From assembly GCF_000014565.1 (NCBI RefSeq), contig NC_008269.1, positions 620,001 to 684,000 of the forward strand: 64,000 bases of DNA, read 5' to 3'. Position numbers and translations under genes: made by a program. The DNA is from Rhodococcus jostii RHA1 (lineage in GTDB: Bacteria > Actinomycetota > Actinomycetes > Mycobacteriales > Mycobacteriaceae). This document shows positions 3,919 through 52,149 of the stretch, in pieces (within the stretch, counting starts at the first letter, position 1; the number at the start of each line of letters is the position of its first letter). Below the pieces are notes generated by a model. That model was given only the letters and a program-made list of their open reading frames with translations. It ran no database searches and had not been told where the DNA came from.

Positions 3919-4121
3919 TGCATTGTCTGGCGCCCGGCCGCAGAACCTGGCCGAGGAGACCGATCAGTGGTTTGGCCGTCCGCCAGGGCAGGGTTGCGTC
4001 CATGACAATGGTGTACGAGCCGGATCAGGACGTCACCGGCGTGTCCAAGCCGGAAAGTAGGCGGTCATCACGTGATTCTTCGAGAGAGCTACCAACACTC
4101 GACTCGACGAAAGAGCACGCG

Positions 4122-4676
4122 ATGGCCACTACCCACGATATCGACCTGCACCAGTTCCTGTTCGGCGGCCTCCTCGGCGCAGCCGTCGGGGGTGGTCGCA
4201 GGCTCCGCGAGGTCGCCCACCGAATCACGCCCGAATGCGCGTCGAACGATCGCCTCACCGAGGCCAGCCCTGACCTGCTGCGGAGCTTGTTGTCCACCTT
4301 CATTGAGGCGCTCATGGGCGCCGAGGCCGACACCCTGTGCGGTGCCGGCTACGGCGAACGCTCCGAGGACCGCACCAACAGCCGCAACGGGTACCGACAC
4401 CGCGACTTCGACACCCGCGCCGGCACTCTCGATATTGCGATCCCCAAGCTGCGTCAGGGTTCGTATTTCCCAGAGTGGTTGCTCCAGCGCCGCAAGCGTG
4501 CCGAGCGTGCGCTGACCTCGGTGGTGGCACCTGCTACCTGCTCGGCGCCTCCGCCCGCCGGATGGAGAAACTCGTCGATTCCCTCGGAATCACCTCGCTG
4601 TCGAAGTCGCAGGTCAGCGTAATGGCCAAGGACCTTGACGCCCAGGTCGAGGCATTCCGCAGCCGTTCAAATAGGC
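4122..4676 (+). pseudogene. IS256-family (mutator-type) transposase, frameshifted and truncated
   Basis: The first frame from ATG 4122 encodes a transposase N terminus, including LLRSLLSTFIEALMGAEAD and the conserved NGYRHR and IPKLRQGSYFP segments. The similarity continues in the next frame (TCYLLGASARRMEKLVDSLG, then SKSQVSVMAKDLDAQVEAF) after an apparent one-base deletion near 4529. It stops at about residue 180 of a family usually near 400 residues, so the DDE catalytic core is missing. The break abuts the stop codon of the ATP-grasp gene that ends the biosynthetic cluster, suggesting an old insertion at the cluster edge. Confidence 0.88.
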
Positions 4677-5932
4677 GAGGTTGAGCGTAGGGGAGGGAGG
4701 AGTACCCGGATCTCGGTCGCGTCGAGGGCCTCTCGCGCTCGCAAAACAGCTACTCGGGGGTCATCCGCATACGCACGAGCATGTCCGAACCGTGAATTCG
4801 AAGCGCGCAGTGGCTCCAACCTGGCACCAGCAGCGCGGTACAGCTCCACCTCGCGCACACCCTCGCGGAGCCGAGCCGCCTCGAGGCCGCTTATCGACTC
4901 GAGCGTGCAGTCCATCTCGCTTGACGCGAACCAGATTGCCTCGTACCTGGGTGGTCGCGTCGCCGCGTGGGCGAGCTCGGCGCGGAGCCCGTCGAGGAGA
5001 TTCCGTTCGCCGAGGACCTGGCGGACGGTGTACTCGGTCAGGTTCACCGCAAGAGCGTCCTGGACCAGCTGGGGGATGCAATCGCCGGCGAGCCGGGTGT
5101 GTGTCTCGATGATCCGAGGCCCGTTCTCGGTCAGGACCAACTCGGTGTGGGTCGGGCCGAAGCCGATCTCCAGAGCCGACAGCACCGAGCGGACGTAGGT
5201 GCTGATCGCTGTTAGCTGGTCGGCACTCACCTCGGCTGGCAGCACGTGGCCTACCTCGACGTGGGTGAATGGGTCGGAGTACTTCTGGGTGACGCACACG
5301 ATTTCGTGCGTGCCTTCGTCGGAAAATGCCTCCACGCTGACTTGCACCCCGATGTGCAGCCGTTCGACCAGCACGCCTCCGCTGGTCCACTCGCCGGTGA
5401 CGTCGGCTGCATCGAAGGCGGTCGCCAGATCGGCCTCGGTTTCTATCTGGCGGATTCCTATGCTCCCTGCGCCGACGGCGGGCTTGGCGATGCACGGGAA
5501 TCCGTGGATCCGTGCAAACTCGCGCAGCTCGGCGACGGACCGGACGATGGCGTGCGGTGTGTCGTCCATGCCGAGCGCGGACAGCCGCTCCCGCATGCTT
5601 GGCTTGTGGTGCACCCAGTGAATGGTTTGCTTGGTGTGCATAGGAAGGCCGAGTTCCTCTGCGATCACGGCTGCCCGATCCTGATCCCGTTCGGCGAACG
5701 AAGCGATCTTGGTGAATGGGTCGAGGCGATGGACCGCTGACGCAATCGCCAGCCACTCCTGGTCGCTCGCCTCCGCCCGCAGCCCCAATATGCGCTGATG
5801 CAAATGTTGCTCACGCAGTTTCGGCACGATGGCCAGCTGGCAGACGACCGACGTCCGCACATCGGTGCCCAAGGACCGCAACAGCCCCGGCATGGTCATG
5901 CCTCCACCGACGACAAGCACGTGATCTGACAT
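4667..5932 (-). CDS. ATP-grasp ligase of the biosynthetic cluster
   Basis: A 421-residue ATP-grasp protein. It has an N-terminal Rossmann-like region (VLVVGGGMTMPGLL), a central ATP-binding lysine segment (FPCIAKPAVGAGSIGI), and the C-terminal metal/ATP-binding core (GPTHTELVLTENGPRIIE, then THTRLAGD). Relatives form amide bonds by activating a carboxylate as acyl-phosphate (L-amino acid ligases of the BacD type, carboxylate-amine ligases). ATG 5932 follows GAGG at good spacing; ATG 5944 overlaps the stop of the MFS gene. It is the last gene of the four-gene leftward operon, and probably joins an amino acid to the cluster product. Substrates unknown. Confidence 0.85.
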   Translation of the reverse strand: MSDHVLVVGGGMTMPGLLRSLGTDVRTSVVCQLAIVPKLREQHLHQRILGLRAEASDQEWLAIASAVHRLDPFTKIASFAERDQDRAAVIAEELGLPMHTKQTIHWVHHKPSMRERLSALGMDDTPHAIVRSVAELREFARIHGFPCIAKPAVGAGSIGIRQIETEADLATAFDAADVTGEWTSGGVLVERLHIGVQVSVEAFSDEGTHEIVCVTQKYSDPFTHVEVGHVLPAEVSADQLTAISTYVRSVLSALEIGFGPTHTELVLTENGPRIIETHTRLAGDCIPQLVQDALAVNLTEYTVRQVLGERNLLDGLRAELAHAATRPPRYEAIWFASSEMDCTLESISGLEAARLREGVREVELYRAAGARLEPLRASNSRFGHARAYADDPRVAVLRAREALDATEIRVLLPPLRSTSPI

Positions 5933-5940
5933 CGTTCGCC

Positions 5941-7197
5941 TCATTTCGAAGCCGCTAGGTGAATGTCTTTGCCCCGAGAGGCAGTTGATATCGTCGTGAA
6001 GCCAACGGTGGCCGCGGCAAAGACGATTGCCAGAACAAGCCAGCCGGTTGTGGGCAGCGCGAGAACCACACCGGTCATGAGCACCGGTCCAACAATTCGC
6101 TGGAGGCCGGAGCCGCTGTTGAATGCGCTGAGGTACTCGCTGCGGCGGGCATCCGGAGCCAGTTCGAAAGACACCTGCCACGCCGCGATGCTATGGAGGT
6201 TCTCACCGAGGGTGAGTAACGCAACTGCCGCCGCGCAGAGGGCAATTGCCGCTGATCCGGTGAGTCGTTCGGCGGTGAGACAGCAGAAACATGCGGCGAC
6301 GAGGGCGCTGGCGGCGACGAACAACGTCGGGTTCGTCGCGGTCGTCAACCGCCGAATGCGGCCGAACCCCAGTTGCATCGCCACCGTGAGCCCGGTGTTC
6401 AGCGCGAGCATCAGTGAGACCCACAGTGGCGAGGCACCCAGTCGCAACACCATCCACAGTGGCAGCAGTACAAACAAGACGGAGTCGTGTAGCAGCAGCA
6501 GACCGTTGAGCCCGGCCAGGCTGAGAAACGCTGGGTTGCGCAATGCTGGTCTCGAGCTTCCGCAGTCCTTCTCCTGCTGTTGGGCCGGTGGGATTGCACT
6601 GCGTCGAAGCGAGTGCACGACCCACGCAAGTATGAGAAACGAGGTCCCGTTTATTGCGAGGAGGGCTGCTACCAGCGGCTGCGAGTGCGTCGTCAATGCG
6701 GCGCCCGCGACGAGAGTCCCGGCGCCGAGTGCCACATTGCGCGCGGCCCTGATCGAGGACATCACTCGGATTCGGGCATCACCGGCGAACAACTGCGCTA
6801 CCAGCGACTGTTGTAGTGGCGGCGTCGCCGCCTCCAGTGCCATCAACGGAAGCGTCAACAAGAGGAAGGTGACGTACTGGGTGGCCAGGGCATAGGCGAC
6901 GAATCCGATTCCGCGCAACGCGAGGGCAGTGCAGTAAACCCTGATCAGCCCGAAGCGGTCCGCCAGTCGTCCCACGAGGATGGGACTGAGGACACCGAAG
7001 ATTGCGCCGGCCGACATTGCGGCGACGACCGAGTTGGCGGTGAAACCGACGATCGTGACGAAGTAGAGGATCGTGGCGGCAGCGCTGATTCCGGTGCCGA
7101 ATGAGTCCACGGCAGCGCCTGCGACCAGGCGCTGCATGCTTCTCGGCTGCGAACGTGCCGGCGTTATCGGCTCATTTGCGACGTCGGGAACGCTCAT
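5941..7197 (-). CDS. MFS transporter, likely product exporter
   Basis: A 418-residue, strongly hydrophobic protein with about 12 predicted membrane segments. The MFS signature between helices 2 and 3 is visible as GRLADRFGLIRVY. The start at 7197 overlaps the stop of the adenylation gene (ATGA) and its stop adjoins the ATP-grasp gene, so it is translationally coupled within the cluster. Its position suggests export of, or self-protection against, the metabolite; drug transport is the usual role of such relatives. Confidence 0.85.
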   Translation of the reverse strand: MSVPDVANEPITPARSQPRSMQRLVAGAAVDSFGTGISAAATILYFVTIVGFTANSVVAAMSAGAIFGVLSPILVGRLADRFGLIRVYCTALALRGIGFVAYALATQYVTFLLLTLPLMALEAATPPLQQSLVAQLFAGDARIRVMSSIRAARNVALGAGTLVAGAALTTHSQPLVAALLAINGTSFLILAWVVHSLRRSAIPPAQQQEKDCGSSRPALRNPAFLSLAGLNGLLLLHDSVLFVLLPLWMVLRLGASPLWVSLMLALNTGLTVAMQLGFGRIRRLTTATNPTLFVAASALVAACFCCLTAERLTGSAAIALCAAAVALLTLGENLHSIAAWQVSFELAPDARRSEYLSAFNSGSGLQRIVGPVLMTGVVLALPTTGWLVLAIVFAAATVGFTTISTASRGKDIHLAASK

Positions 7198-8591
7198 GAG
7201 TTTCCCGTCGTGCCATTGCGAAGTGCCGCACGATCGACCTTGGCTCGCCTGTCCAACGGGAGTCGAGTGACTACGAGGATCTTGTCCGGCAACTGGGCGG
7301 GGGCGAGCGTGTCGAGCAGCGCCATCCGAATAGCGCGAAGTGAGAGAGTGTCCGAACCTGCGGATACACCGCAGTACAACACGATCCGGTCGCCCTGCTG
7401 CACCACCGCGGCTGCGGCGTCGACGGCCGGGACAGCGACCGCCGCTGCCTCGATGGCCGGCAACGAGACCTTGACGCCGCGGCGCTTGACGACGTGGTCC
7501 AGTCGGCCTTCCACAACGACGCTGCCATCGGGCGCGAGTGAGGCGAGATCTCCGGTGCGCAGTCGACGTCGGCCCGCCGCATCACGCTCGAATCGGGTCG
7601 ACCCGGTCACGGGCGTGAGGTAACCCAGTGCGAGGTCCTCACTGACGATACAAAGCTCCTGGGCATCGTCGAGGTCATCGACCGGCACGAATTCGACCGC
7701 GGTACCCGGTATCGGTGTGCCGACGGGCACGATCGCGGTATGTACCTCGGCGCCCGCCGGGAGCACGTGGCGAAGTTTGATCACGGTGGACTCGGTGGGT
7801 CCATACAGGTTGATGACGACCGGGTGAGGGGCGTGTGCTCGCCAACGTCTCAACAGCGGCTGCGGAAAAGGTTCTCCGGACACTAGGATTCGCCGTAGAC
7901 GCTCGGTCGCCGAGCGGACCGTAGTCGGATCGGCGCGGTCCATCGCAGTAACCAACCGGGCCAGCATCGACGGAAGGAGGCACACCATTGTGGGCCGATG
8001 CTCGGCGAGCCACGTCAATAACGTCGTGCCGCCGGCGAGCGCAGCAGGGGGTGTCACGGTGATCGTCGCGCCGGCGACCAGAGCGCCGAGTGTTTCCTTG
8101 AACGAGAAATCGAACCACGGATCCGCAGTGTTGGACACCACGTCGCTCGGGTCGAGGGCCAGCTCTGCCTGCTGCCACTGTAGATAGCGAGCCAGCCCGC
8201 TACGCGAGCCGACGACGACTTTCGGTTCACCCGACGTGCCCGAGGTGGTCAGCAGGTATCCGCAACCTTCCGGTGTGTCGGGGAGGGTGGTCGGATCGAT
8301 CGTGGAATCTGGAGTGACCGGTACGAACGGGCGTTCCGCCAGAATGCATCCCACCATTTCGGTGAGCGACTCCACGCCCCGAGGTTTGCTGATCAGAACC
8401 GGGCCCGTGCCAGAGGTGAGTTTCGCGGCGAGTTCCCTCGATTTCGTGTGCAACTCACCATAGGTCAGCACGGCATCGCCCTGCACCACTGCTGGGTGCA
8501 TCGGGTCCGTCCCGCACAATCCGGACTCGATCACCCGACGCAGTGTGACGTCGATCGAGCCGGGGGCGGCGTCAGTGGCCGGTGACCGCAT
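7194..8591 (-). CDS. Stand-alone amino-acid adenylation enzyme (AMP-binding, NRPS A-domain type)
   Basis: The 465-residue protein carries the adenylation-domain core motifs in order: A3 (LLTTSGTSGEPKVVV), A4 with the Asp that contacts an alpha-amino group (FDFSFKE), A5 (NLYGPTEST), A7 (RTGDLA), A8 (GRLDHVVKRRGVKVS) and A10 with the catalytic lysine (LPLDRRAKVDRAAL). It should activate an amino acid with ATP and load it on a carrier protein. ATG 8591 lies within the end of the upstream carrier-protein gene (20-nt overlap), pointing to that protein as its partner. The FD of A4 favours an amino acid over a plain carboxylic acid; the substrate is not deducible. Confidence 0.88.
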   Translation of the reverse strand: MRSPATDAAPGSIDVTLRRVIESGLCGTDPMHPAVVQGDAVLTYGELHTKSRELAAKLTSGTGPVLISKPRGVESLTEMVGCILAERPFVPVTPDSTIDPTTLPDTPEGCGYLLTTSGTSGEPKVVVGSRSGLARYLQWQQAELALDPSDVVSNTADPWFDFSFKETLGALVAGATITVTPPAALAGGTTLLTWLAEHRPTMVCLLPSMLARLVTAMDRADPTTVRSATERLRRILVSGEPFPQPLLRRWRAHAPHPVVINLYGPTESTVIKLRHVLPAGAEVHTAIVPVGTPIPGTAVEFVPVDDLDDAQELCIVSEDLALGYLTPVTGSTRFERDAAGRRRLRTGDLASLAPDGSVVVEGRLDHVVKRRGVKVSLPAIEAAAVAVPAVDAAAAVVQQGDRIVLYCGVSAGSDTLSLRAIRMALLDTLAPAQLPDKILVVTRLPLDRRAKVDRAALRNGTTGNS

Positions 8592-9126
8592 CGCTCGACC
8601 CGGTGGGATGGTCGGTGACGAGGATCCGCACGCCGGCAGGATCAGAGTCGCAATCAAACCGCAGCACCGTACCTCCCCGTCGTATCAGCACGTCGCCTCC
8701 GTGCATCGGAAGGCGTGTGCAGGCACCGTTTCCGCGAGCCTGACGCAACAACGCAACCCGGGATCCGTCGCCATCGCCGTAAGCGAGCGTGACCTCTTCG
8801 GGCAGCAGGGCGTCCGCCGCGGAGGCGCCGAGTTCGGCCAGGGCATCTGCGATGACGCCGAGGTCGAACCCGGCGGCCAAATTCGTGCGGTACTCGCCGA
8901 GGCGTCGATTCAGATGGTCGAGATAGCCGGCAAACTCACGCGGAGTCGGGGCCAGATAAAGATCTCTGAGTTCAACCGGCAATCCCGTGGATAGCGAAAG
9001 CTCGGAAACGATCGAGGCAGCGAGCAACGAGTTCCCCTCGAGGTCGAAGAAGAAATCGTCATCGGGCCGGACAGGAGCCCCGTCGAGTAGCCGACTCCAT
9101 AGAGCTGCGATTGAAACGGCTTCCAT
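8572..9126 (-). CDS. Acyl/peptidyl carrier protein with C-terminal extension
   Basis: Residues 1-75 form a carrier-protein domain with the phosphopantetheine serine in FDLEGNSLLAAS, a variant of the usual GGxSL. About 110 further residues follow (roughly 75-184) with no family I recognise; they look alpha then beta rich. The start at ATG 9126 is preceded by GGAAGGGA; upstream in-frame starts add unlikely sequence. It is first in the leftward operon, followed with overlap by the adenylation enzyme that presumably charges it. The extension might be a docking or small catalytic domain; that is inference. Confidence 0.8.
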   Translation of the reverse strand: MEAVSIAALWSRLLDGAPVRPDDDFFFDLEGNSLLAASIVSELSLSTGLPVELRDLYLAPTPREFAGYLDHLNRRLGEYRTNLAAGFDLGVIADALAELGASAADALLPEEVTLAYGDGDGSRVALLRQARGNGACTRLPMHGGDVLIRRGGTVLRFDCDSDPAGVRILVTDHPTGSSDAVTGH

Positions 9127-9635
9127 AAGTGATTCCCTTCCAGCGGAACGTCCAGGATGAATTGCTCCATGAGACAGTCGTTTCGGAGGGTGATCACCCT
9201 CGATGGACACGGAGAATCATCGGTGCCTGGCACACGTAATGTAAATCCACCCTTGGTGTGGAGTGTCGGACCCCTTGTCGTGCAGGCGGGCCGTTCCGCG
9301 TCGCTCACCGCGTGCACACCAGTCGCGTTCGGGATTGCGCACGGTACCCCGGTGCACGCGGCGATCGGCCGCGGTGGGGCATGAAGGTTTCGCGCCCGAA
9401 CGGGAGGCCTGTGGATGGGTCACTTTGCACCCAAGGGTGTCTATCGGTGACTGGGCGAGCCACCCATGATTCATCCCAGGCCGCCGAGGAGTCGGTCTCG
9501 AGATGAGGACGAACGACCTGCCACAATCGAACTCGTCGACGGTGTCTCCGTCGAAACCGGGTCCGATCTGTTGGTCGGGCGATCTTGCTCGGAAATGTGT
9601 CCAGCAGGCGCGTCGAATGGATCGGGGCAAGCTAC
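9127..9635. promoter_or_regulatory. Divergent promoter region of the biosynthetic cluster
   Basis: About 510 nt separate the divergent carrier-protein and KamA-like genes. No gene is supported here, and it must hold the promoters of both arms. I could not identify convincing -35/-10 pairs or an operator. No cluster-linked regulator is encoded nearby. Confidence 0.5.
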
Positions 9636-10964
9636 ATGAAGAACCGAATGCGAACCTTCCGCGGCGTGCAGCTGGCCGACCTTCCGCAGCTTGACCAGTT
9701 CACGGAGCAGGAACGGCACGAAATGCGCGTCGTCGCAAACCTATTGCCGTTCAGAGTCAACAACTATGTTCTGGATGAGTTGATCGATTGGTCGTCGGCT
9801 CCCGACGACCCAATCTTTCGGATGACTTTTCCGGCCCGAGAAATGGTGCCTCCACGCATATACGATCTGGTGTCGGACGCGCTCTCGAACGGCGTCGACC
9901 GGAAGCAGCTGCAAGCAATCGCCCAGAAGTGCCGCCAAGACCTCAACCCGCATCCCTCCGGTCAGCGTGAGCACAATGTGCCACTGCTCGACGGCGAGCC
10001 GGTTGCTGGGCTCCAGCACAAGTACCGACAAACGCTTCTGGTATTTCCATCCCAGGGTCAGACGTGTCACTCGTACTGCTCGTACTGCTTTCGTTGGGCA
10101 CAATTCGTCGGTGATGCGGACCTGAAGTTCGCCGCACCTGGTCCAGGTCGGATGATCGATTACCTCCGTGGCCACCGGGAGGTCACCGACGTGCTGCTCA
10201 CCGGCGGCGATCCACTGATCATGTCGACTCCGGTCCTGGCCCGGTGGGTCACGCCGCTTCTAGCGCCCGATCTGGAGCACGTGACGAACATCCGCATCGG
10301 CACCAAGGCTTTGGTGCAGTGGCCGTACCGCGTCACGTCCGGGCCTGACGCCGACGAGTTGCTGCGGCTGATCGAGGCGTGCACTGCCGCGGGAAAGAGC
10401 GTCGCGATCATGCTGCACGTCTCGCACCCACGCGAGCTCGAGAACGAGGCGGCAACGGCCGCAGTAGCGAGGTTGCGTTCCGCGGGGGCCGTAGTCCGAG
10501 CGCAGGCGCCGATCATTCGCCACGTGAACGACTCACCTCAGGCGTGGGCAACCATGTGGCGGCACATGGTGCGGCTCGGTATCCAGCCGTACTACACCTT
10601 CGTCGAGCGCGATACCGGTGCGAGCTCGTTCTTCGAGGTTCCGCTGGCCCGTGCGCTGACCATTTACCAGGAGGCGCAGCGTGTGGTATCCGGGCTGGCG
10701 CGCACTGCTCGCGGCCCCGTCATGTCGGCGACCCCCGGCAAAATCGCTATCGATGGGGAAACGGTCGTGAACGGCGAACGTTTGTTCGTGCTGCGCCTGC
10801 TGCAGGCCCGTGACGACGCTCTTGCCGGCACGCTGTTCTTCGCCAGGCACAGCGACAGCGCAGTCTGGATCGACCATTTGACCCCTGCTCTGTCCACGTC
10901 ATGGCCGTGGGAATCATCTCGCGATCGCATCCAATTCGAACCCATTGAAGGAGTTAGCCGATGA
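9636..10964 (+). CDS. KamA-type radical SAM aminomutase (lysine 2,3-aminomutase-like)
   Basis: A 442-residue radical SAM enzyme. Its CxxxCxxC iron-sulfur motif is Cys144, Cys148 and Cys151, followed by the SAM-binding LTGGDP segment. Near the C terminus, PGKIAIDG matches the position of the PLP-binding lysine of lysine 2,3-aminomutases. KamA enzymes convert L-lysine to L-beta-lysine using SAM and PLP. ATG 9636 was chosen because homology begins soon after it; a TTG at 9585 is an alternative. It leads the rightward arm and overlaps the cupin start (ATGA), so beta-lysine is a likely building block. EpmB-type or glutamate 2,3-aminomutase activity cannot be excluded. Confidence 0.88.
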   Translation: MKNRMRTFRGVQLADLPQLDQFTEQERHEMRVVANLLPFRVNNYVLDELIDWSSAPDDPIFRMTFPAREMVPPRIYDLVSDALSNGVDRKQLQAIAQKCRQDLNPHPSGQREHNVPLLDGEPVAGLQHKYRQTLLVFPSQGQTCHSYCSYCFRWAQFVGDADLKFAAPGPGRMIDYLRGHREVTDVLLTGGDPLIMSTPVLARWVTPLLAPDLEHVTNIRIGTKALVQWPYRVTSGPDADELLRLIEACTAAGKSVAIMLHVSHPRELENEAATAAVARLRSAGAVVRAQAPIIRHVNDSPQAWATMWRHMVRLGIQPYYTFVERDTGASSFFEVPLARALTIYQEAQRVVSGLARTARGPVMSATPGKIAIDGETVVNGERLFVLRLLQARDDALAGTLFFARHSDSAVWIDHLTPALSTSWPWESSRDRIQFEPIEGVSR

Positions 10965-11329
10965 CCACAGACTCGGTCACCCAGGGCGTCGCTCACAGTG
11001 TCAACGGAAGACTGCCGGAACTGGACTTCGAGAACAGGCCCTCGGGCGCGAAACTCGGAATCTTCGATCTGCCGAAGCTCGAGGTTTCGGTGGCGCCATT
11101 CACGCTGGCACACATCCGTGTGCCCGGGGGCGTCACCACCGCCGAGGATCACCATGAGGTGCGCGAGATCTGGCTCGTCCAGTCCGGATCGGGGATTCTG
11201 ACCCTGGACGGAGTCCGGTCGAGGGTGCGGGCCGGCGACACGCTGTACTACGAGAGCTATCGACGCCACCAACTGCACAACGACGGCGACTCTCCGGTCG
11301 AGATCGTGTCGATCTGGTGGCGTCCGTGA
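10961..11329 (+). CDS. Single-domain cupin, putative N-N bond-forming half of a hydrazine synthetase
   Basis: A 122-residue cupin. Metal ligands are visible: the HHEVRE cluster in the first cupin motif and the histidine in RRHQLHNDG of the second, with GDTLYYES between. In hydrazine synthetases of the s56-p1/triacsin type, a zinc cupin fused to a MetRS-like domain converts an N6-hydroxylysine amino-acyl ester into a hydrazine. Here the cupin is a separate gene, two genes before the hydroxylase and three before the MetRS-like gene, all translationally coupled. Its start overlaps the KamA stop and its stop overlaps the next start (GTGA). The N-N role is inferred from this combination. Confidence 0.8.
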   Translation: MTTDSVTQGVAHSVNGRLPELDFENRPSGAKLGIFDLPKLEVSVAPFTLAHIRVPGGVTTAEDHHEVREIWLVQSGSGILTLDGVRSRVRAGDTLYYESYRRHQLHNDGDSPVEIVSIWWRP

Positions 11330-12426
11330 ACGCCAGGCCGAGCTTGAGCGTGATGTTCTTCTCCGGTTCGGTGCCGGCGGACCGCACTGACCGCTACCGC
11401 CTGGTTCACGACGCCGCGGCGGTCGCCGACCGTCTCGGCTACGAGGCGATCTGGTTGCCCGAACGTCATTTCGACGTGTTCGGTGGGCTGTTCCCGAATC
11501 CGTCCGTTCTGGCCGCCGCACTTGCGGGCACGACGAAGCGGTGTCACTTGCGCGCCGGGAGCGTCGTTGCGCCGTTACATGATCCGATAAGGATCGCCGA
11601 GGAATGGTCGGTGGTGGACAATCTGTCCGGTGGTGGCCGCATCGGGCTGTCGATCGGTTCAGGATGGAATACGAACGACTTCGTATTGGCGCCTGATCGG
11701 TACGAGACCCGGGTGGCCCATTCGCGGGACTCCATAGATGAGCTTCGCGCGCTGTGGGCAGGAAGGCGGGTCGCACGGCGCAACGGTTCGGGCCGAACGG
11801 TCGAGGTGGCTATCCAACCGGAACCGCTTTCCGGTGAGTTGCCCCTGTGGATGACCGCGTCCGGAAATCCCGACACCTTCACTGCGGCAGGGCGATTGGG
11901 AACCAACCTACTTACGCACCTCTTGGGCCAGGACCTGGGCGAGCTGGCGTGCAAGATCAAACTCTACCGTGACGCACGAGCGACCGCGGGCCACGACCCC
12001 GACTCTGGCCGGGTCACCCTGATGCTGCATACGCTGGCAACGGCCGACAACGCGCATGCGTGGACGGCAGCTCGCGCGCCGTTGCGGTCGTATCTGCGAT
12101 CGGCGCTGGAGCTGGAGCTGCGGGCGTCAGCTGGTGGTGGCCGGGTGAGCGGCGGCAGACGAATTGCGGTGCCCGCGTTGTCCGAGGCGGTTGTGGAGGA
12201 ATTGCTCGACGAACGCACGCGCCGCTTCTTCGATGACGCCAGCTTGCTGGGCGCCGTGCCCAAGTGTCTGGCGATGCTCGAGGCGGTCGCCGCCGCCGGA
12301 GTGGACGAGGTTGCGTGCCTCATCGACTTCGGTCCTTCGAGGCAGCTCGTTCTGGACAGCCTGAATCGTCTCGCACCGCTTCTCCACCCCGAAGTCGAGG
12401 GAGCTGTCAATGTTGGAACACCTTGA
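11326..12426 (+). CDS. Luciferase-like (LLM) flavin-dependent monooxygenase
   Basis: A 366-residue TIM-barrel flavin oxidoreductase of the bacterial-luciferase superfamily. It resembles the MupA/Atu3640-type subgroup found in natural-product pathways: early YEAIWLPERHFDVFGGLF, then LSIGSGWNTNDFVLAP. These enzymes use reduced FMN and oxygen to hydroxylate or cleave substrates. GTG 11326 overlaps the cupin stop (GTGA), preferred over GTG 11317. Its 3' end overlaps the hydroxylase start by 17 nt. In this pathway it could oxidise the hydrazine or the lysine carbon skeleton; its substrate is unknown. Confidence 0.85.
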   Translation: MNARPSLSVMFFSGSVPADRTDRYRLVHDAAAVADRLGYEAIWLPERHFDVFGGLFPNPSVLAAALAGTTKRCHLRAGSVVAPLHDPIRIAEEWSVVDNLSGGGRIGLSIGSGWNTNDFVLAPDRYETRVAHSRDSIDELRALWAGRRVARRNGSGRTVEVAIQPEPLSGELPLWMTASGNPDTFTAAGRLGTNLLTHLLGQDLGELACKIKLYRDARATAGHDPDSGRVTLMLHTLATADNAHAWTAARAPLRSYLRSALELELRASAGGGRVSGGRRIAVPALSEAVVEELLDERTRRFFDDASLLGAVPKCLAMLEAVAAAGVDEVACLIDFGPSRQLVLDSLNRLAPLLHPEVEGAVNVGTP

Positions 12427-13753
12427 TCTGGTTGGTATTGGTGCAGGTCCGTCCAATCTCAGCGTCGCAGCGCTTTCCGCGCCGGTCGGTCGGCTGCGGT
12501 GCAAGTTCTTGGACCGGCAACCGACACAACGTTGGTACCCCGGGCTGATGCTGTCCGCCGCGGTGCTGCAGGTTTCGCACCTGAAAGACCTCGTGACCTT
12601 GGTCGATCCGACGAGCCGGTACACCTTCCTGAACTTCCTCGCGCGCACGGGGCGGCTCCACCGCTTCGCCAGTTTGCATACCCCGCTGATCGCTCGCCGA
12701 GAATACGAGAGCTACCTGCGCTGGGTCAGCGACCAGTTGGATGAGGTGCAGTTCGGGTGTGCGGTCGAGGAAGTGACATTCGACGGGCAGGCGTTCAGGG
12801 TGGAATCCACCCGAGGTACGTATGCGGCACAACACCTGTCGATCGGAGTCGGGCCGCGACCGTACGTGCCGGAGCTCGCCACAGGCACGCTCGGTGAGGA
12901 TGTGTTCCACTCATCTGACTTCGGCTACCACACCGATTCACTCGCCGGCCGCGACGTCGTGGTAGTCGGGGGTGGGCAGAGCGGCGCCGAGGTAGTGGAA
13001 CACCTTCTGCAGCGTTCGGGCCGGGATGCAGTCGGCTCGCTCACCTGGGCGAGCAGGCGGATCGGGTTCCAGCCGCTCGACGAGTCGCCGTTCACCAACG
13101 AGTGGTTCCATCCGGACTATGTTCGGTATTTCCACGGTCTGTCGCAGAGTCGTCGTAGCCAGTTGCTTGACGCCCAGCAGCTCGCCAGCGACGGCATTTC
13201 GAAGGGGCTGCTGGAATCGATCTACCGCAGGCTGTACTACAACGATTTCGTCGATTCGGACCGCATCCGGACAACCCTGCTGCCTGGTCGTGAACTGACC
13301 GGGCTCTGTCGCGGGCCGGGCGGCAAGGGCTGGCGGACAACCCTGACCCACATCGATACCGGAGAAATCGATTCGGTCGGTGCCGACATCGTGGTCCTCG
13401 CCACCGGATACCATTTCCCCCTTCCCGAGTTCCTCCATACCCTCGGGGGTCGCATCGCGCGTACCAATTGCGGCCTGCCCCAGCTTGCAGCCGACTACTC
13501 GGTTTCATGGGCGGGCCCAGCCGGAAACAAGATGTTCTTCCTCAACGCCGGAAAGCTCAGTCACGGCATCGCGGATCCCAATCTCAGTCTCGCCTCGTGG
13601 CGTGCGGCCACCGTCTTGAACACGATCACCGAGACCCCGTTATATCCCGACCTGCGTAGCTCGACGTGTTCGTGGGACGTCGCGGATCGTGCTGCCACCC
13701 ATCCGCCGGTGGATTCCGGCGTCGACCTGCTCACGGAAAGTAGCCGACAATGA
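12410..13753 (+). CDS. Lysine/ornithine N-monooxygenase family enzyme (N6-hydroxylase-like)
   Basis: A 447-residue flavoprotein of the siderophore amine-hydroxylase family (IucD/SidA/PvdA). FAD binding is marked by GIGAGPSNLSVAAL at residues 6-19, NADPH binding by VVVVGGGQSGAEV near residue 185, and the C-terminal signature by LATGYHFPLPEF. These enzymes hydroxylate the side-chain amine of lysine or ornithine with FAD, NADPH and oxygen. No siderophore synthetase or acyltransferase is nearby. Instead it is coupled (ATGA) to a MetRS-like gene and grouped with a cupin, the setting of the lysine N6-hydroxylases that feed hydrazine synthetases. The substrate could be lysine or, given KamA, beta-lysine. 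Confidence 0.9.
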   Translation: MLEHLDLVGIGAGPSNLSVAALSAPVGRLRCKFLDRQPTQRWYPGLMLSAAVLQVSHLKDLVTLVDPTSRYTFLNFLARTGRLHRFASLHTPLIARREYESYLRWVSDQLDEVQFGCAVEEVTFDGQAFRVESTRGTYAAQHLSIGVGPRPYVPELATGTLGEDVFHSSDFGYHTDSLAGRDVVVVGGGQSGAEVVEHLLQRSGRDAVGSLTWASRRIGFQPLDESPFTNEWFHPDYVRYFHGLSQSRRSQLLDAQQLASDGISKGLLESIYRRLYYNDFVDSDRIRTTLLPGRELTGLCRGPGGKGWRTTLTHIDTGEIDSVGADIVVLATGYHFPLPEFLHTLGGRIARTNCGLPQLAADYSVSWAGPAGNKMFFLNAGKLSHGIADPNLSLASWRAATVLNTITETPLYPDLRSSTCSWDVADRAATHPPVDSGVDLLTESSRQ

Positions 13754-15225
13754 CCCAGCACCTCATCGTGCCGAGCAATCCCACGCCGAACGGGGACCTG
13801 CACATCGGGCACATCGCTGGACCGTACATCGGTGCGGACGCACTACGGCGTGCGGCCATCGCCCGGGGTGAAGACGCCGCTGTCCTGCTCGGCACCGCCT
13901 GGCAGCAAACGCATGTGCTGTTGGCCGCCCGCCGGCAGGGTCGTGACGTCCTTGCCGTCGCGAGCGAGTTCGCCGCCCAGATCGAGGAGTCCTTCGCCGC
14001 AGCAGATATCGGGTACGACGTGATGCTTCGACACGAGGACATGCCGTCGATCGAACAGATGACCCGGCGCGCATGGTCGACGCTACGTGAGCTCGGCATG
14101 ATCGCGGTGCGGGATTCCGTCGCACACTACTGCTCGCCATGCCGAGCGTGGCGCTTCCAGGGACTCGTTGCCGGTCGCTGCCCGCGTTGCGGGTCGTCTG
14201 ACGCGTACGGCATCGACTGTGAACAGTGCGGTCTGTACCACGACGACGCCGAACTGCTCGACGCCGTGTGCACCGTGTGCCACGAGCCGACAGAACTTCG
14301 GTCCCTGCGCCGTGCGTTCCTCGAGCTGGAACCACAGCGTGCCTGGTTCGAGCAATACCTGGGCAGCATCACACTCGGCGACCCGGTCCGCGAATACGCC
14401 GAGTCCGTGATGTCGGAGGCGCTGCCGTCCGTTGCCGTCACGGTCCTCGGCGGACCGGGGATCCCGGCCTTGGACGAGGAGTTGCCAGGTCAGACCATCT
14501 ACCCGGCATTCGAGTTGGCACCCCGCTATGTCGTCATGACCGCGCGACACAGCGCTGGCAGTGTCTACGAACCCGCACGCACCAGGACCAGCATGGTGTT
14601 CGGTGTCGACAACGCGTTCGAGCGAGTATTCCTTTTCCCCGCAGTACTGCGCGGGCTGACCGAAACACACGCTCCCTTTCCGGACGTCATGCACTTGACC
14701 TACTTCTACATGCTCGACGGGGCCAAATTCTCCACGTCCCGCCGCCACACCGTCGGCGTCGCAGAACTTGTCGGAGTGGCGGGCGCGGATGCGGCCCGCC
14801 TGTACCTCGCTGCGAACCGGCCCGAGCGTTCGCCGACCAACTTCACCCGATCGGCATTCGAGGGGTCGGCAGAGGTCTCCGCGGTACGTCGGCTGCGAGC
14901 GTGGGCGGATACCGGCGAGATTCCACGCGCGGAGGAGGACTCTTCCAGAGATCCCTGCATCGAGCTCGAGCACGCCACCTCCGAACTTGCCGATGCGCTG
15001 CAGCCCGAGCGCTTGTCCTGCCAGAACGCGGCGCGGGCGGTGCTCACCCTGACCGGGTTGGCCGGAGCATCCCACGGTGACAGGTTCCGGGACGCGGTCC
15101 TGAACGTCCTCGTCAATGGGGCAGTGCTTGTCCCGGACACCGCGGCCCGCTTGGCCAGCGCCTTCGCGGTGCCGCGAACACGTTTCGATGGTGCCGCACA
15201 GCGCACGAGTGGAGGCCGAGGATGA
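13750..15225 (+). CDS. Methionyl-tRNA-synthetase-like amino-acid-activating enzyme (hydrazine synthetase partner)
   Basis: A 491-residue class I aminoacyl-tRNA-synthetase homologue. HIGH is intact at residues 18-21 and KFSTS near residue 326 replaces KMSKS. A zinc-knuckle insert with four CxxC pairs spans about residues 127-178 (CSPC, CPRC, CEQC, CTVC). It is shorter than housekeeping MetRS and the anticodon-binding part looks reduced, arguing for a biosynthetic role. In known hydrazine synthetases the MetRS-like domain adenylates a free amino acid and transfers it to N-hydroxylysine oxygen before the cupin forms the N-N bond. Start and stop overlap the hydroxylase and dehydrogenase genes (ATGA at both ends). 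Confidence 0.87.
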   Translation: MTQHLIVPSNPTPNGDLHIGHIAGPYIGADALRRAAIARGEDAAVLLGTAWQQTHVLLAARRQGRDVLAVASEFAAQIEESFAAADIGYDVMLRHEDMPSIEQMTRRAWSTLRELGMIAVRDSVAHYCSPCRAWRFQGLVAGRCPRCGSSDAYGIDCEQCGLYHDDAELLDAVCTVCHEPTELRSLRRAFLELEPQRAWFEQYLGSITLGDPVREYAESVMSEALPSVAVTVLGGPGIPALDEELPGQTIYPAFELAPRYVVMTARHSAGSVYEPARTRTSMVFGVDNAFERVFLFPAVLRGLTETHAPFPDVMHLTYFYMLDGAKFSTSRRHTVGVAELVGVAGADAARLYLAANRPERSPTNFTRSAFEGSAEVSAVRRLRAWADTGEIPRAEEDSSRDPCIELEHATSELADALQPERLSCQNAARAVLTLTGLAGASHGDRFRDAVLNVLVNGAVLVPDTAARLASAFAVPRTRFDGAAQRTSGGRG

Positions 15226-16442
15226 GCGATCCCGTCAGGTGCGCGCTGATCGGCTGTGGTCCGATGGGCGCCGCCACCGCCCGCGAGTTGGTGCTTTCCT
15301 GGCCCCACCATGGGGCGCCGCTGCAGCTGACTCTGGTCGACCGCGACGCGAGACGGCTCCATGCGCTCGCAGCGGCCCTACCGGCATCGGCCGGCGTTGC
15401 GGTCGAAGCGCACCACGGCGACGCGGCACACCATCGCACCCGGCAACTACTCGCCGAGCAAACGGTGTTGGCCACCGCCCTGTCGTGGGTCGACGCCGCA
15501 CCGGCGCTCGATCTCACGCTGGAGCACGGACTTCGGCTGGTGGGTATCGGTCGCCCACCAGCAGATCCACGAACAGAACTGGCTAGTCGCGCATCGGTAT
15601 CCGGTGCTTCGATCGTTGTCGGCGCCGGTCTCGAGCCCGGTTTGACCGAAATCCTGGCGCGGCGATTGGCACGTGACCTCGATGTGGGCGGAACCGTGCA
15701 CTCATACTGTGGCGGGGTCCCACGGTCACCGCGACCGCCGATGCATCACGTGTCCTGGTACGGCACGCGCATGACGATCGACGCGCGACCGACCTACCGG
15801 CTTCGCGGCGGCGTGCTCCGCCAGGTCGAACGATTCAGTGGAGTCGAAATGGTCGACGTCCCCGGCCTCGGCTCGCTGGAAGCTTTCCACGACGGTCTGG
15901 CGCCCTACGTCGGCGCCGATGCCGTGCTCGGCTCGCTGGCCGACTACACGGCCAAAACGCTGCGGTGGCGGGGATATGCCGATCGTGTCCGGCTACTCGC
16001 AGAGATTGGCCTGCTGGGGGAGCTGCCGGTCCAGACCGTCGACGGCCCGGTCCGTCCCCGTGCGCTGCTCGACGCCGTACTCGCTCCGCACATTTCCGCT
16101 CAGCACGGGGACACCGACGTCACCGTGCTGGCCGTCCAGTCGAGCGGTACTTCGGGTGGAACGCCCTCGAACAGGTCGACCGTGACTATCGCCGAGACCG
16201 ACCCCGTCACCGGCGTCACCGGTATGGGACGACTGACCGGGGCGGTGCACGCCGCTGCCATTCGGGCAGCATGCGGCCTGGGAGCCGGTGTTCACTACGC
16301 CCACGAAGTTCTGGCCGACGGGAAGGCGGATGCACTTCTCGAGCGATTCCTCGCGACGGGGATATCGGTGACAGAACACTCAGACGCGTGGCTGACGCGA
16401 TCGCAGCCGGGACACGGCGTCACGGAGGACCGCGATGAGTGA
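15222..16442 (+). CDS. Saccharopine dehydrogenase-like oxidoreductase
   Basis: A 406-residue NAD(P)-dependent enzyme with an N-terminal Rossmann fold (ALIGCGPMGAATARELV), a VGAGLEPGLTEILAR segment and a C-terminal saccharopine-dehydrogenase-type domain. Saccharopine dehydrogenases oxidise the C-N bond of a secondary amine on the lysine side chain. The expected hydrazine intermediate, lysine joined through N6-N to another amino acid, resembles saccharopine, so this enzyme could cleave it to a free hydrazino acid plus allysine, or reduce a hydrazone. That role is inference. The last 63 nt overlap the antisense thioesterase gene. Confidence 0.8.
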   Translation: MSDPVRCALIGCGPMGAATARELVLSWPHHGAPLQLTLVDRDARRLHALAAALPASAGVAVEAHHGDAAHHRTRQLLAEQTVLATALSWVDAAPALDLTLEHGLRLVGIGRPPADPRTELASRASVSGASIVVGAGLEPGLTEILARRLARDLDVGGTVHSYCGGVPRSPRPPMHHVSWYGTRMTIDARPTYRLRGGVLRQVERFSGVEMVDVPGLGSLEAFHDGLAPYVGADAVLGSLADYTAKTLRWRGYADRVRLLAEIGLLGELPVQTVDGPVRPRALLDAVLAPHISAQHGDTDVTVLAVQSSGTSGGTPSNRSTVTIAETDPVTGVTGMGRLTGAVHAAAIRAACGLGAGVHYAHEVLADGKADALLERFLATGISVTEHSDAWLTRSQPGHGVTEDRDE

Positions 16443-17072
16443 ATCCGTCGGATCGCTTGCCGCGAAGTGGCCGCCCGGCAGGATGAGATGGGTATGAGAG
16501 GCCGAGGTGGCCGCCGACCACCGACGAACTGCGGCGGCATCGACCACCACATCGTCGATGTAGCTCAGCGCTGTGACCGGTGCGGACACCCGGACACCAT
16601 CCCACGAGTAGCGTGCGCTGAGCTCGAAATCGGCGCGCAGCAACGGAATCAGCATGTCCTGAACCGAACGGTCGAGTGCGTGCGCGCCCCACGACTGGAC
16701 CGTGGCCAGCAATTCTGCATCGGTCTGGTGGGTGAGTTCTCCTGCAATTCCAGCGCACTGCGGAGCCTGCCGGGCGGACACCACCAACTCGACGTCGACC
16801 GCGTCGTCGGCGAGCAGTCGGGCGGCCTCGAACGCCACCGTCGCCCCGATGCTGTGACCGAAAAGGACGACCTGGGGTTGCTCGAGGGCGAGAATCCTGC
16901 CTGCCACGTCCGCCGCGGCCGCGGTGAGCGACGTCGCAAGCGGTTCGTTCATGCGCTCCTCATGACCCGGCCGCGACAACGGCACCACGCGCGCCCCGTC
17001 CACAGCGCGCGGCCACCGGCGAAAGAACGACCGGCCGGCACCGGACGGCGGCACGCACACCACCACTGCCAT
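16380..17072 (-). CDS. Type II thioesterase, antisense within the cluster
   Basis: A 230-residue alpha/beta hydrolase with the type II thioesterase layout. It has the N-terminal strand VVCVPPSGAGRSFFRRWP, the SRPGHEERMNEP turn, the nucleophile motif GHSIG and the catalytic His in LPGGHFAASD. Such enzymes remove stalled or wrong acyl groups from carrier proteins, so the partner is probably the carrier protein at 8572-9126. The start at ATG 17072 best aligns with the family; an upstream in-frame start adds a hydrophobic lead. It is the only gene on the opposite strand inside the rightward arm: its 3' end overlaps the dehydrogenase gene by 63 nt and its start lies 34 nt from the next ATP-grasp start. 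Confidence 0.82.
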   Translation of the reverse strand: MAVVVCVPPSGAGRSFFRRWPRAVDGARVVPLSRPGHEERMNEPLATSLTAAAADVAGRILALEQPQVVLFGHSIGATVAFEAARLLADDAVDVELVVSARQAPQCAGIAGELTHQTDAELLATVQSWGAHALDRSVQDMLIPLLRADFELSARYSWDGVRVSAPVTALSYIDDVVVDAAAVRRWSAATSASHTHLILPGGHFAASDPTDSLIAVLRDAVSRLRSRQPRV

Positions 17073-17106
17073 GCACACTCCGAACAACGACAAGGGGACT
17101 AGCAAT

Positions 17107-18354
17107 ATGGTACGTCGAACGATCGTCTTCATGGGCACTCGGCGAGTCCCTCTGGAAGTGCAGGCGGCATTGCTCTCCGCACACGCTGCCGGGTATCGAG
17201 TTGCCCTGGTCACGGGGTCGGTTCCGCCGATGTGCAAGAACCTGGTCGACGATGTCGAAATCGTCGACATCTTCGACCGCCCAGCCGCCCTGCGGGCAGC
17301 CATGGCACTCGCGAGCCGCAGCGGGGCAGAGGGCGTCGTGTCCTGGACGGACATCGGTGTCGAGCTGGCCGCCGCGTTGGCAGAGCGAAGCGGATGGCCG
17401 GGTCCTGGCACCGAGGCAGCGCACCGGGCTCGCAACAAGCACTCGATGAGGTCCGCGATGGCCGATCAGCCGCAATTCATTCCACGGTTTCGACATGTTC
17501 GTTCCCTGTCGGACCTGCAGTCGGCTTACGAGGAGATCGGCACACCTGCGGTGCTCAAGCCGGCGGGTGGCAGTGGCAGCAGGTCCATTCTTCACGTCGA
17601 GGACGGCGCCGACCTCGCCGCGTTGTACGCGCACGCCTCCCGGCTGACCAGCACGGACATTTCTCCGTTGTTTGCCGACTACGACGGCGAATTCGTCTAC
17701 GAGGAGCGGTTGGGCGGCACCGAGCACAGTGTCGAGGGCCTGGTCAGTGACGGGAAAGTGCACATCGCTGGGATCACGGACAAATGGGTGACCGAGCCGT
17801 ACTACGTCGAGTACGAACAGGTGCACCCCACCGCTCTGCCGGCAGCCGTGCAGCGCAGCGTGCACGAACTCACCGAGGCCGTGGTCAAGGCGATCGGCCT
17901 GAACTGGTGCGCGTTCCATCTCGAATGTCGCGTCCTTCCCGACGGGAGTGCCAAGCTGCTCGAGGTCGCCGCCCGGCCGGCCGGTGGTTACATCACCTCC
18001 CACCTGATTCCGTTCGCCACCGGAATTCCCTTCCACGAAAACCTCGTTCGAGTGGCAACCGGGCAACAGCCCGACATGATTCCGACGCGGAATCGGTACG
18101 CGGGCAGCCGCGGCGTACTCAGCCCGGCACGGGGCCGATTCGCGGGCTTCGACGGTCTGGCCGATGTTCTCGACCTGTTTGGAATCGAGCACTTCGTCTT
18201 CGAGCGTGAAATCGGTGGGAACATCATGCTCCCGCCCGGCGACACATTGAGCGCCGTACTCGGTTACGCGATCGCCCGATCCGTCAGCTACGACGATGTC
18301 CGCGACGTTCTACGGCGCGCAGTGGCGCTGTCCCGGCCGCGAGTGGAGACCTAG
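17107..18354 (+). CDS. Second ATP-grasp ligase of the cluster
   Basis: A 415-residue ATP-grasp enzyme with the lysine-containing loop (TPAVLKPAGGSGSRSIL), the adenine-side segment (GEFVYEERLGGTEHSVEG) and the magnesium-binding core (CRVLPDGSAKLLEVAARPAG). It probably forms an amide bond through an acyl-phosphate. It is only distantly like the ATP-grasp protein at the left end, so the two likely act at different steps. ATG 17107 has AAGGGGA 9 nt upstream; an in-frame ATG at 17071 overlaps the thioesterase start. The stop is directly followed by the next start (TAGATG). Confidence 0.85.
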   Translation: MVRRTIVFMGTRRVPLEVQAALLSAHAAGYRVALVTGSVPPMCKNLVDDVEIVDIFDRPAALRAAMALASRSGAEGVVSWTDIGVELAAALAERSGWPGPGTEAAHRARNKHSMRSAMADQPQFIPRFRHVRSLSDLQSAYEEIGTPAVLKPAGGSGSRSILHVEDGADLAALYAHASRLTSTDISPLFADYDGEFVYEERLGGTEHSVEGLVSDGKVHIAGITDKWVTEPYYVEYEQVHPTALPAAVQRSVHELTEAVVKAIGLNWCAFHLECRVLPDGSAKLLEVAARPAGGYITSHLIPFATGIPFHENLVRVATGQQPDMIPTRNRYAGSRGVLSPARGRFAGFDGLADVLDLFGIEHFVFEREIGGNIMLPPGDTLSAVLGYAIARSVSYDDVRDVLRRAVALSRPRVET

Positions 18355-19635
18355 ATGCGCGCCAACGGATTACCGCCGGTCGAGCGGATCGAGCTCGGTG
18401 CCGGCTTGACCGGGCGGGTAGTCGCCACGGTCGACCTACTCGTGCAGGAGGGTTTGGCAGCGCTGAACGGGGAGGCGGCGTGGACCTCGCCTGAATGGTG
18501 GCGCTTTGTGGAGGCCGATCCCGACCACGAATCGCTGTACCTGGTCATCGACGGCGCGGACAACCGACCGGTCGCCGTAGCACCGGCGTTGATCATTCGG
18601 GACACCCGAGGTCTGCTGTTCTACAACGGTCCGCGGATCATCGGTGACCTGTCCGCGATCGGCTCGGTCTCCCATCTCGCGCTCGACGAACAGGAAGCGC
18701 TGCCCTGGTTGACCGCTGGGGTCGAGGCGGCGCGGCCGGCCCTCTACCCGTCGCTGACGGTCGGCACATTCGGATCGAACCTCGGATTGCGGCCCTTCGC
18801 ACCCGATCGCACGACGCTCCCCGTTTCAACTGTCGTCCCGGCGCTGGCCAGACTGGCAGAGGTCGTCGCCGAACTCCTCGGCTGCCGAAGCCATGCACTG
18901 CTGTATCTCGATCCGGAGGAGGACGCGGCTTTGGCGTCGGACGCCAGCGCCGCCGGCCTCTGCCGTTCGGTGTTCGGCGGTGAAGGCGTCCTCGACGTGC
19001 CAGACGGGCACTTCGACGACTACCTCTCGATGCTGCCCAGTTCGCGGCGGAGGACCATCCGTCGCGAAATCCGAGCATACGCCGAGTTCGGTGCCCGAAC
19101 CGAAGTCGACTACGGCTCAGGGGCGCTCACCGACGACCATGTCCGATTGCGGTCGGCCTTGCGGGAAAAATATGGTCACACGGCCGGACGAACGTGGGCG
19201 CGTAAGGAATTCGACACCCTCCGCGACACCCTAGGCGAGAGGCTTGTCGTGTTCAGCGCCCGCGGGACCGAACAGATCCTCGGATACCTGATGGCCTTCC
19301 GATACGGCGATGTGCTGTATACGCGTGCCGCCGGCTTCGACTACGAGGCATCTTCAGGTGCCTACTGCTACTTCAACGTCGTCTACTACGACGTCATCAA
19401 ATGGGCCCAGCGCAATGGCGTGCGTCGAATACATTACGGACTCGGAACCACGGCTGCGAAGGCCTGGCGAGGATGCACGCTGCGGCCGCGCTGGGCCTAC
19501 TTCGGCCTCGGGCCCGACGCTGCGCCAGACGCGACCGAAATGATCGCAATCCAGAACGCAACAGCTTCACGGTTGCTTGCCAGCCTAGGGGCAGAGTTGG
19601 AGTACGGGAGCACTGCAGGCGTGAAGGCGGAATGA
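18355..19635 (+). CDS. FemAB-like/GNAT-fold acyl or aminoacyl transferase
   Basis: A 426-residue protein resembling the peptidoglycan FemAB-like family (PF04339 type) with a C-terminal GNAT fold. Seen features include the PSSRRRTIRREIRAY helix, the acceptor-pocket strand EQILGYLMAFRYGDVLYTRA, and the conserved closing segment HYGLGTTAAKAWRGC. Relatives transfer aminoacyl groups, often from aminoacyl-tRNA, or acyl groups to amines. ATG 18355 follows the ATP-grasp stop with no gap, so the two are coupled. It is the last gene of the cluster and could add a final aminoacyl group; donor and acceptor are unknown. Confidence 0.75.
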   Translation: MRANGLPPVERIELGAGLTGRVVATVDLLVQEGLAALNGEAAWTSPEWWRFVEADPDHESLYLVIDGADNRPVAVAPALIIRDTRGLLFYNGPRIIGDLSAIGSVSHLALDEQEALPWLTAGVEAARPALYPSLTVGTFGSNLGLRPFAPDRTTLPVSTVVPALARLAEVVAELLGCRSHALLYLDPEEDAALASDASAAGLCRSVFGGEGVLDVPDGHFDDYLSMLPSSRRRTIRREIRAYAEFGARTEVDYGSGALTDDHVRLRSALREKYGHTAGRTWARKEFDTLRDTLGERLVVFSARGTEQILGYLMAFRYGDVLYTRAAGFDYEASSGAYCYFNVVYYDVIKWAQRNGVRRIHYGLGTTAAKAWRGCTLRPRWAYFGLGPDAAPDATEMIAIQNATASRLLASLGAELEYGSTAGVKAE

Positions 19636-50664: not shown

Positions 50665-50702
50665 CTAACGCTCCCTTCTCCGCGTAGGAACCGTCGCGGG
50701 TG

Positions 50703-51020: not shown

Positions 51021-51099
51021 GGTGCCTCTCCAACAGGGTGCGTAACCGATATGGGCGAACGTGGTTGTGCGGGAACGTAGGAGACATACGCTGCGAGAA

Positions 51100-52127: not shown

Positions 52128-52149
52128 AGTTATCCACAGATCACGTTGA
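52128..52149 (+). promoter_or_regulatory. 22-nt conserved element, copy 2
   Basis: Same element as at 51100 with one difference (A for G after TTATCCACAG). It ends 91 nt before the FtsK-like start. TTGAGC plus CAGTGT 18 nt on could be the promoter. Confidence 0.7.

Follow-up and report, generated by a model that had tools for sequence, protein, structure and literature searches.

A conserved thirteen-gene cluster around the N-N bond-forming cupin RHS1 of Rhodococcus jostii RHA1, with a predicted peptide product

The hydrazine module

The window analysed here, a stretch of 64,000 nucleotides from Rhodococcus jostii RHA1, contains a cluster of 13 genes on plasmid pRHL1 (positions 4667-19635; Table 1). 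The locus raises the question of what is made around RHS1, a zinc cupin that has a crystal structure and a published N-N bond-forming activity, yet whose cluster had a product stated as not known in the available text of Zhao et al. (2021; PMC8664883). The lysine N6-hydroxylase, the methionyl-tRNA synthetase (MetRS)-like protein and the cupin of this cluster are published as linking lysine to glutamate through an N-N bond. In the reading considered likely here, the other ten genes are predicted to lead to an exported small peptide, most likely one that contains a unit derived from 2-hydrazinoglutarate.

Along its full length the cupin aligns with PDB 5UQP (272.6 bits), and it retains the Asp/His/Glu/His set named as essential for zinc cupins in PMC8664883, here D63, H65, E69 and H103. 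Zhao et al. report the detection of the hydrazine of N6-hydroxylysine and glutamate in R. jostii overexpressing its own lysine hydroxylase, MetRS-like protein and RHS1, the replacement of the PyrN cupin function by RHS1 in vitro, and an ester mechanism shown for the homologue PyrN (PMC8664883, available text). An earlier mention of the operon in R. jostii, including its saccharopine dehydrogenase gene, is found in Aravind (2010; PMC2922099, available text). A preliminary description of this DNA, made from the sequence, had proposed N-N bond formation leading to a new hydrazine-, hydrazone- or diazo-type peptide; the N-N chemistry holds for exactly this locus but is not new, since the hydrazine was already in print (PMC8664883), and a hydrazone or diazo end group is not supported.

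The two strongest MetRS matches in the genome score 369 bits (contig C1) and 156 bits (the copy in the cluster, on contig C2), and by this measure the cluster encodes a divergent MetRS-like paralogue apart from the other MetRS of the cell. The preliminary description had named grouping with siderophore hydroxylases and housekeeping tRNA synthetases as an outcome that would tell against its proposal, and this result goes the other way for the MetRS-like protein. A wider MetRS survey at an E-value of 1e-60, a threshold that hides distant hydrazine synthetases, matched only the RHA1 genome itself (1 of 394). The saccharopine-dehydrogenase-like protein (PF16653, 60.5 bits) is likened to PyrL by family rather than by sequence comparison.

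Gene content, organisation and edges

All 13 functions listed in the preliminary description are present, as assigned by Pfam and NCBIfam and by the PGAP annotation of the corresponding stretch of plasmid pDK3 of Rhodococcus sp. DK17, which is 99.4% identical to the cluster and is also found on plasmids of strains DK176 and DK180. The kamA, cupin, luciferase-like monooxygenase (LLM), lysine N6-hydroxylase, MetRS-like and saccharopine-dehydrogenase-like genes follow one another as a single coupled run, the overlaps being 4, 4, 17, 4 and 4 bases, of which the fourth is that of the hydroxylase and MetRS-like genes. Of the two divergent arms described earlier, the right one is interrupted by the minus-strand thioesterase gene, which is convergent with the saccharopine-dehydrogenase-like gene and overlaps its end by 63 bases, so that this arm is not one continuous operon. 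A plus-strand open reading frame (ORF) at 16467-17102 is probably spurious, as it matches no family and is covered by the thioesterase gene. A regulatory scan of positions 9100-9700 gave one promoter-like and two terminator-like sites, which support no conclusion.

Table 1. Genes of the cluster, their positions in the window and the basis of each assignment (PMC8664883 as in its available text)
Gene product	Position	Strand	Basis
agA, ATP-grasp of the L-amino-acid ligase type (ATP-grasp_4 + LAL_C2), predicted peptide ligase	4667..5932	-	Pfam; PGAP start in pDK3
MFS exporter	5941..7137	-	PF07690; PGAP start in pDK3
Stand-alone adenylation enzyme	7194..8534	-	PF00501; alignment; PGAP start in pDK3
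Carrier protein with C-terminal extension	8572..9126	-	PF00550; PGAP start in pDK3
KamA-like radical SAM aminomutase	9636..10964	+	CX3CX2C present; Asp293 of lysine 2,3-aminomutase replaced by Arg325
Zinc cupin RHS1, N-N bond forming	10961..11329	+	PDB 5UQP, identical to WP_007299751.1; activity published (PMC8664883)
MupA/Atu3671-family FMN luciferase-like monooxygenase, predicted oxidation of carrier-bound unit	11326..12426	+	TIGR04020; PuwE
Lysine N6-hydroxylase (flavin N-monooxygenase)	12410..13753	+	PF13434, 339 bits; used in published overexpression (PMC8664883)
MetRS-like adenylating partner of hydrazine synthetase, uses L-Glu	13750..15225	+	PF09334; published (PMC8664883)
Saccharopine-dehydrogenase-like enzyme (PyrL type), predicted 2-hydrazinoglutarate release	15222..16442	+	PF16653; PyrL role suggested in PMC8664883
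Type II thioesterase	16380..17132	-	PF00975, 86.9 bits; PGAP
agB, second ATP-grasp ligase	17131..18354	+	PF13535; PGAP start in pDK3
FemAB-like GNAT-fold protein, predicted aminoacyl-tRNA-dependent peptide synthase	18355..19635	+	

The cluster is flanked on both sides by wax ester synthase/DGAT genes (2053-3474 and 19692-21185). All 13 genes are carried by Rhodococcus wratislaviensis (L010; 92-97% identity) and by Virgisporangium aurantiacum (L011; 50-71%), and the flanking genes were not found in either stretch, of which that of L010 ends 1.3 kb past the last gene; the retention of the 13 genes without these neighbours supports the edges at 4667 and 19635. These two loci are the only complete ones among the best 80 of 577 KamA loci kept from a scan of genome contigs (the protein listing covered 120 of 7834), and a further one (L009), on a short contig, has the cluster in part. 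A search with agA at 1e-40 found matches in 38 of 394 genomes of one family, taken as Streptomycetaceae, and 20 of 30 agA loci were taken into the comparison. One Kitasatospora-like genome (G499), whose KamA is 99.6% identical to that of Kitasatospora sp. Ki12, holds 12 of the 13 genes by similarity (42-69% identity) in a different order; its N-hydroxylase is a divergent flavin enzyme of the same Pfam family (42.7 bits, cut-off 21.3). The gene set is more than a chance assembly, because the 13 functions recur in Rhodococcus, Virgisporangium and this Kitasatospora-like genome. The hydrazine-type members form one clade in the agA and KamA trees (100/99 and 97/95). Elsewhere in the window, an ORF at 3972-4622, between the left wax ester synthase gene and the cluster, contains part of a Mutator-family transposase, and genes at 47228-56135 for AAA_10, FtsK/SpoIIIE-type and CbiA-type ATPases look like plasmid conjugation or partition functions.

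The KamA-like aminomutase

The KamA-like enzyme combines the radical SAM motif with an aminomutase fold, and it is named lysine 2,3-aminomutase in the pDK3 annotation. Its best family names are likewise KamA and lysine 2,3-aminomutases, every one under its cut-off, and the NCBIfam equivalog lys_2_3_AblA is not reached (127.8 bits; cut-off 525.4). Asp293 of lysine 2,3-aminomutase, the residue that binds the ε-amino group of the substrate, corresponds to Arg325. An alignment of the enzyme with 31 relatives, chosen among best matches and loci, shows Arg here in all of its sequences (32 of 32); a second Asp of the lysine enzyme appears, on reading by eye, to correspond to Ser364. The preliminary description had derived the metabolite from lysine or beta-lysine. 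Lysine does supply one nitrogen, but the partner is glutamate, and beta-lysine is not supported given the Arg in all 32 sequences. As a guess from Arg325 and the residues of glutamate aminomutase, the substrate may be acidic.

An osmolyte role for the KamA clade in N-acetyl-beta-lysine formation (ablA/ablB) was considered and rejected: among 20 genomes reached from KamA loci, their completeness not stated, AblB (TIGR03827) exceeded its cut-off of 205 bits in none and gave two weak matches (33 and 25 bits), whereas matches were found in 5 of 14 control genomes, three over the cut-off. The Arg-type KamA clade is widespread (loci L012-L088), occurring in Nocardiopsis, Nonomuraea, Planctomycetota, Verrucomicrobiota and others, mostly with none of the other cluster genes nearby. 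When the neighbours of KamA in 81 loci were grouped and ten representatives scanned, nothing specific to a general role of the clade was found; the representatives included FA_synthesis, ArgRS, ABC transporter parts, a regulator, and others with uninformative or no family. On a Sinorhizobium plasmid (L096:1-5993), a KamA-like gene that by eye also has Arg at the Asp293 position lies downstream of a pair of genes with weak similarity to agA and agB, both carrying a biotin-carboxylase-subunit-family annotation, and near a lysine-aminomutase-like paralogue that retains the Asp.

Carrier-bound chemistry, peptide ligases and the FemAB-like protein

The adenylation pocket segments FDFSFKE, CLLPS, LVSGE and NLYGPTESTVIK are conserved across Rhodococcus, Virgisporangium and the Kitasatospora-like genome, where overall identity is 47-50%, and the substrate of the adenylation enzyme is therefore probably the same in all three lineages. 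The Stachelhaus-like code, which by eye reads D F K L L S L V I K, is not known to match any described code firmly. The LLM scores 469.2 bits against TIGR04020 (cut-off 244.45), with PuwE as its best PDB match. In azaserine and triacsin biosynthesis, the hydrazino acid is attached in protected form to a carrier by a stand-alone adenylation enzyme and is oxidised there (PMC10445470, available text), and these steps may serve by analogy as a model for the adenylation enzyme, carrier, LLM and thioesterase of the present cluster.

The second ATP-grasp ligase, agB, is 69-71% identical in the Virgisporangium and Kitasatospora-like lineages. The FemAB-like protein has the FemX double-GNAT fold, which is that of aminoacyl-tRNA-dependent peptide synthases, and such an activity is predicted for it from this fold; Sba18 and Sbb17, aminoacyl-tRNA-dependent peptide synthases whose entries carry streptothrisamine, are only 14-15% identical to it and shorter (285-288 versus 426 residues). 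It is rare: scoring of 7,999 candidates from a 5.8-billion-protein database gave 19 homologues. Its gene was matched in 2 of 396 genomes of a phylum sample at 1e-20, one of them the RHA1 genome, and in 3 of 300 genomes of the family of Virgisporangium at 1e-30, where only that of Virgisporangium itself was close. Matches were found in 8 of 28 genomes of the genus sample (1e-30): the hydrazine type (94-100% identity) in RHA1 and G1152, and a type of 36-38% identity in seven genomes, RHA1 included. In the genus of the Kitasatospora-like genome, another locus (L136:2302-10712) has agA, FemAB-like and MFS genes beside an arginyl-tRNA-synthetase-like gene, which hints at tRNA-dependent peptide synthesis; kamA was not found within 19.5 kb.

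Proposed pathway and alternative explanations

The first two steps of the proposed pathway are published: L-lysine is N6-hydroxylated, and the MetRS-like protein activates L-Glu with ATP to give an ester with N6-hydroxylysine, which the cupin rearranges to the hydrazine. They are based on the PyrN ester mechanism, on RHS1 in vitro and on the strain's own hydroxylase and MetRS-like protein in vivo (PMC8664883, available text). The saccharopine-dehydrogenase-like enzyme would then cleave the hydrazine to release 2-hydrazinoglutarate. The adenylation enzyme would load an alpha-amino acid, most simply 2-hydrazinoglutarate or glutamate, onto the carrier, where the FMN monooxygenase would oxidise it and from which the thioesterase would edit or release it. 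The KamA-like enzyme would make a beta-amino acid, for which an acidic compound is a more likely starting point than lysine. Peptide bonds would be formed by the two ATP-grasp ligases and the aminoacyl-tRNA-dependent FemX-like enzyme, and the MFS protein would export the product.

Several points weigh against this pathway. The product has not been isolated, and no report of it was found in a literature search in which most papers were judged by their listing and subscription papers lay mostly outside. The steps after hydrazine formation rest on families, folds and context, and the adenylation pocket code (Asp235, Phe236, Lys239) was read by eye on GrsA numbering. Disruption of the saccharopine-dehydrogenase-like genes tri23/tri24 left triacsin production unchanged (PMC10445470, available text), which leaves the role suggested for PyrL as the basis for the proposed release of 2-hydrazinoglutarate. 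Because the published strain overexpressed three genes only, the native partner may also be something other than L-Glu. Finally, the MetRS of the Kitasatospora-like genome is only 42% identical and its N-hydroxylase is different, so the products of the lineages may differ.

A negamycin-like pathway, in which KamA makes beta-lysine, the ATP-grasps link it as a beta-lysyl hydrazide and the FemAB-like protein adds a further amino acid, would accord with the family names of KamA and with the neg cluster, which joins beta-lysine formation, ATP-grasp and hydrazine (PMC12154649, available text). Such a product is unlikely: it is weakened by the invariant Arg325 and apparently by Ser364, and the hydrazine of negamycin is made by the heme enzyme NegJ, whereas all 13 genes here have other family assignments (a comparison by family). 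Somewhat less probable still is a hydrazine that acts solely as a nitrogen donor or transient, its N-N bond passed on, oxidised or lost to give a product without the 2-hydrazinoglutarate unit. Precedents exist in albofungin, where a similar cassette is followed by a transferase that delivers free hydrazine (PMC11705231, available text), and in azaserine, where the hydrazino acid is oxidised to a diazo group (PMC10445470, available text); however, family scans found no asparagine-synthetase-like gene among the 13, and the adenylation enzyme, carrier and LLM fit the use of the whole acid.

That the cluster makes a hydroxamate siderophore from N6-hydroxylysine, with the MetRS-like gene incidental, is very improbable. 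The N-hydroxylase resembles enzymes of siderophore formation, namely the desferrioxamine lysine monooxygenase 5o8p (199 bits) and MbtG (162 bits), though its best match is 6xbb (220 bits); the coupled order of the run from kamA to the saccharopine-dehydrogenase-like gene and its conservation speak against a siderophore, which the published N-N product contradicts (PMC8664883, available text).

A related cluster on the RHA1 chromosome

A second cluster of RHA1 lies on the chromosome (L092:3886-16247, about 3133886-3146247 of contig C1) and encodes homologues of the plasmid agA (47% identity), MFS (38%), FemAB-like (36%) and KamA (58%) proteins. The hydrazine module, adenylation enzyme, carrier, LLM and thioesterase are replaced there by an AurF N-oxygenase, a TauD dioxygenase, Ldh_2, a class IV aminotransferase, MR_MLE and GNAT. 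A wax ester synthase gene (L092:2460-3863), 73% identical to that on the left of the plasmid cluster, adjoins the chromosomal agA. Much the same set is found in Streptomyces sp. CBMA291 (L029) and S. xanthochromogenes (L030), and five more stretches (L128-L130, L132 and L133), which end at kamA with the AurF position beyond them, match it within their extent. These AurF/TauD-type clusters share with the plasmid cluster KamA, the L-amino-acid-ligase-type ATP-grasp, the rare FemAB-like protein, a second ATP-grasp-like protein (Pfam scores under cut-off) and, in RHA1 and CBMA291, the MFS homologue.

Among 12 long loci with a FemAB-like gene (>100 bits), excluding the window and its near copy L094, kamA is present in 11 and agA in all 12, a count biased in that most of the loci were found via kamA or agA, although L092 was found via the FemAB-like gene. 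Three KamA loci (L015, L019 and L021) with weak partial FemAB matches (30-32% over 176-205 residues) and no agA were not counted as carrying the core. A modular pathway is possible, and proposed tentatively, in which a common core of KamA (acting on an acidic substrate), the two ATP-grasps, the aminoacyl-tRNA-dependent FemX-like enzyme and the MFS protein would be combined with interchangeable N-oxidising modules, with hydrazine synthetase in the plasmid cluster and AurF/TauD in the chromosomal one. The trees do not show that this core descended as a whole from one ancestor, as the AurF-type agA sequences fall in two places in the tree once ungrouped rows are counted and the chromosomal KamA of RHA1 forms a long branch.

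Comparison with known pathways and significance

As a whole, the cluster is a variant of known cupin/MetRS hydrazine pathways, the N-N step itself being already published. It is alike to the Glu branch of RHS1, which comes from this same locus, and pyrazomycin (PyrM, PyrN, PyrL) in its lysine hydroxylase, MetRS-like and zinc cupin functions, saccharopine-dehydrogenase-like gene and L-Glu partner. Unlike in pyrazomycin, the cupin and MetRS are separate proteins here, C-nucleoside genes are absent from the 13, and KamA, LLM, adenylation enzyme and carrier, thioesterase, two ATP-grasps, the FemX-like protein and MFS are added. The s56-p1, triacsin and azaserine pathways (Spb40, Tri28, AzsN) share the lysine hydroxylase and cupin/MetRS, and the latter two also the loading of a hydrazino acid onto a carrier by a stand-alone adenylation enzyme and its oxidation there; their partner, however, is glycine, giving hydrazinoacetate, and azaserine and triacsin oxidise with an acyl-CoA-dehydrogenase-like enzyme where the candidate here is the FMN LLM. 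Negamycin likewise combines a hydrazine with an ATP-grasp and the formation of a beta-amino acid (PMC12154649, available text), but that hydrazine is formed from glycine and its beta-amino acid is beta-lysine, whereas KamA here lacks the Asp293 of the lysine enzyme.

What is new is the conservation of the 13-function set in Virgisporangium and, with 12 genes and a different N-hydroxylase, in the Kitasatospora-like genome, together with the Arg at the Asp293 position of KamA, the fold of the FemAB-like protein and the chromosomal sister cluster. For a locus whose strain has already been engineered for the hydrazine pathway (PMC8664883, available text), the comparison yields a defined gene set with supported edges and two further lineages in which to search for the product, as well as a testable doubt on the KamA-like annotation and a sister cluster with other nitrogen chemistry in the same strain. 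If the modular proposal is true, aminoacyl-tRNA would supply this hydrazine pathway with one amino acid, and a radical SAM aminomutase acting on a substrate other than lysine would supply it with a beta-amino acid.

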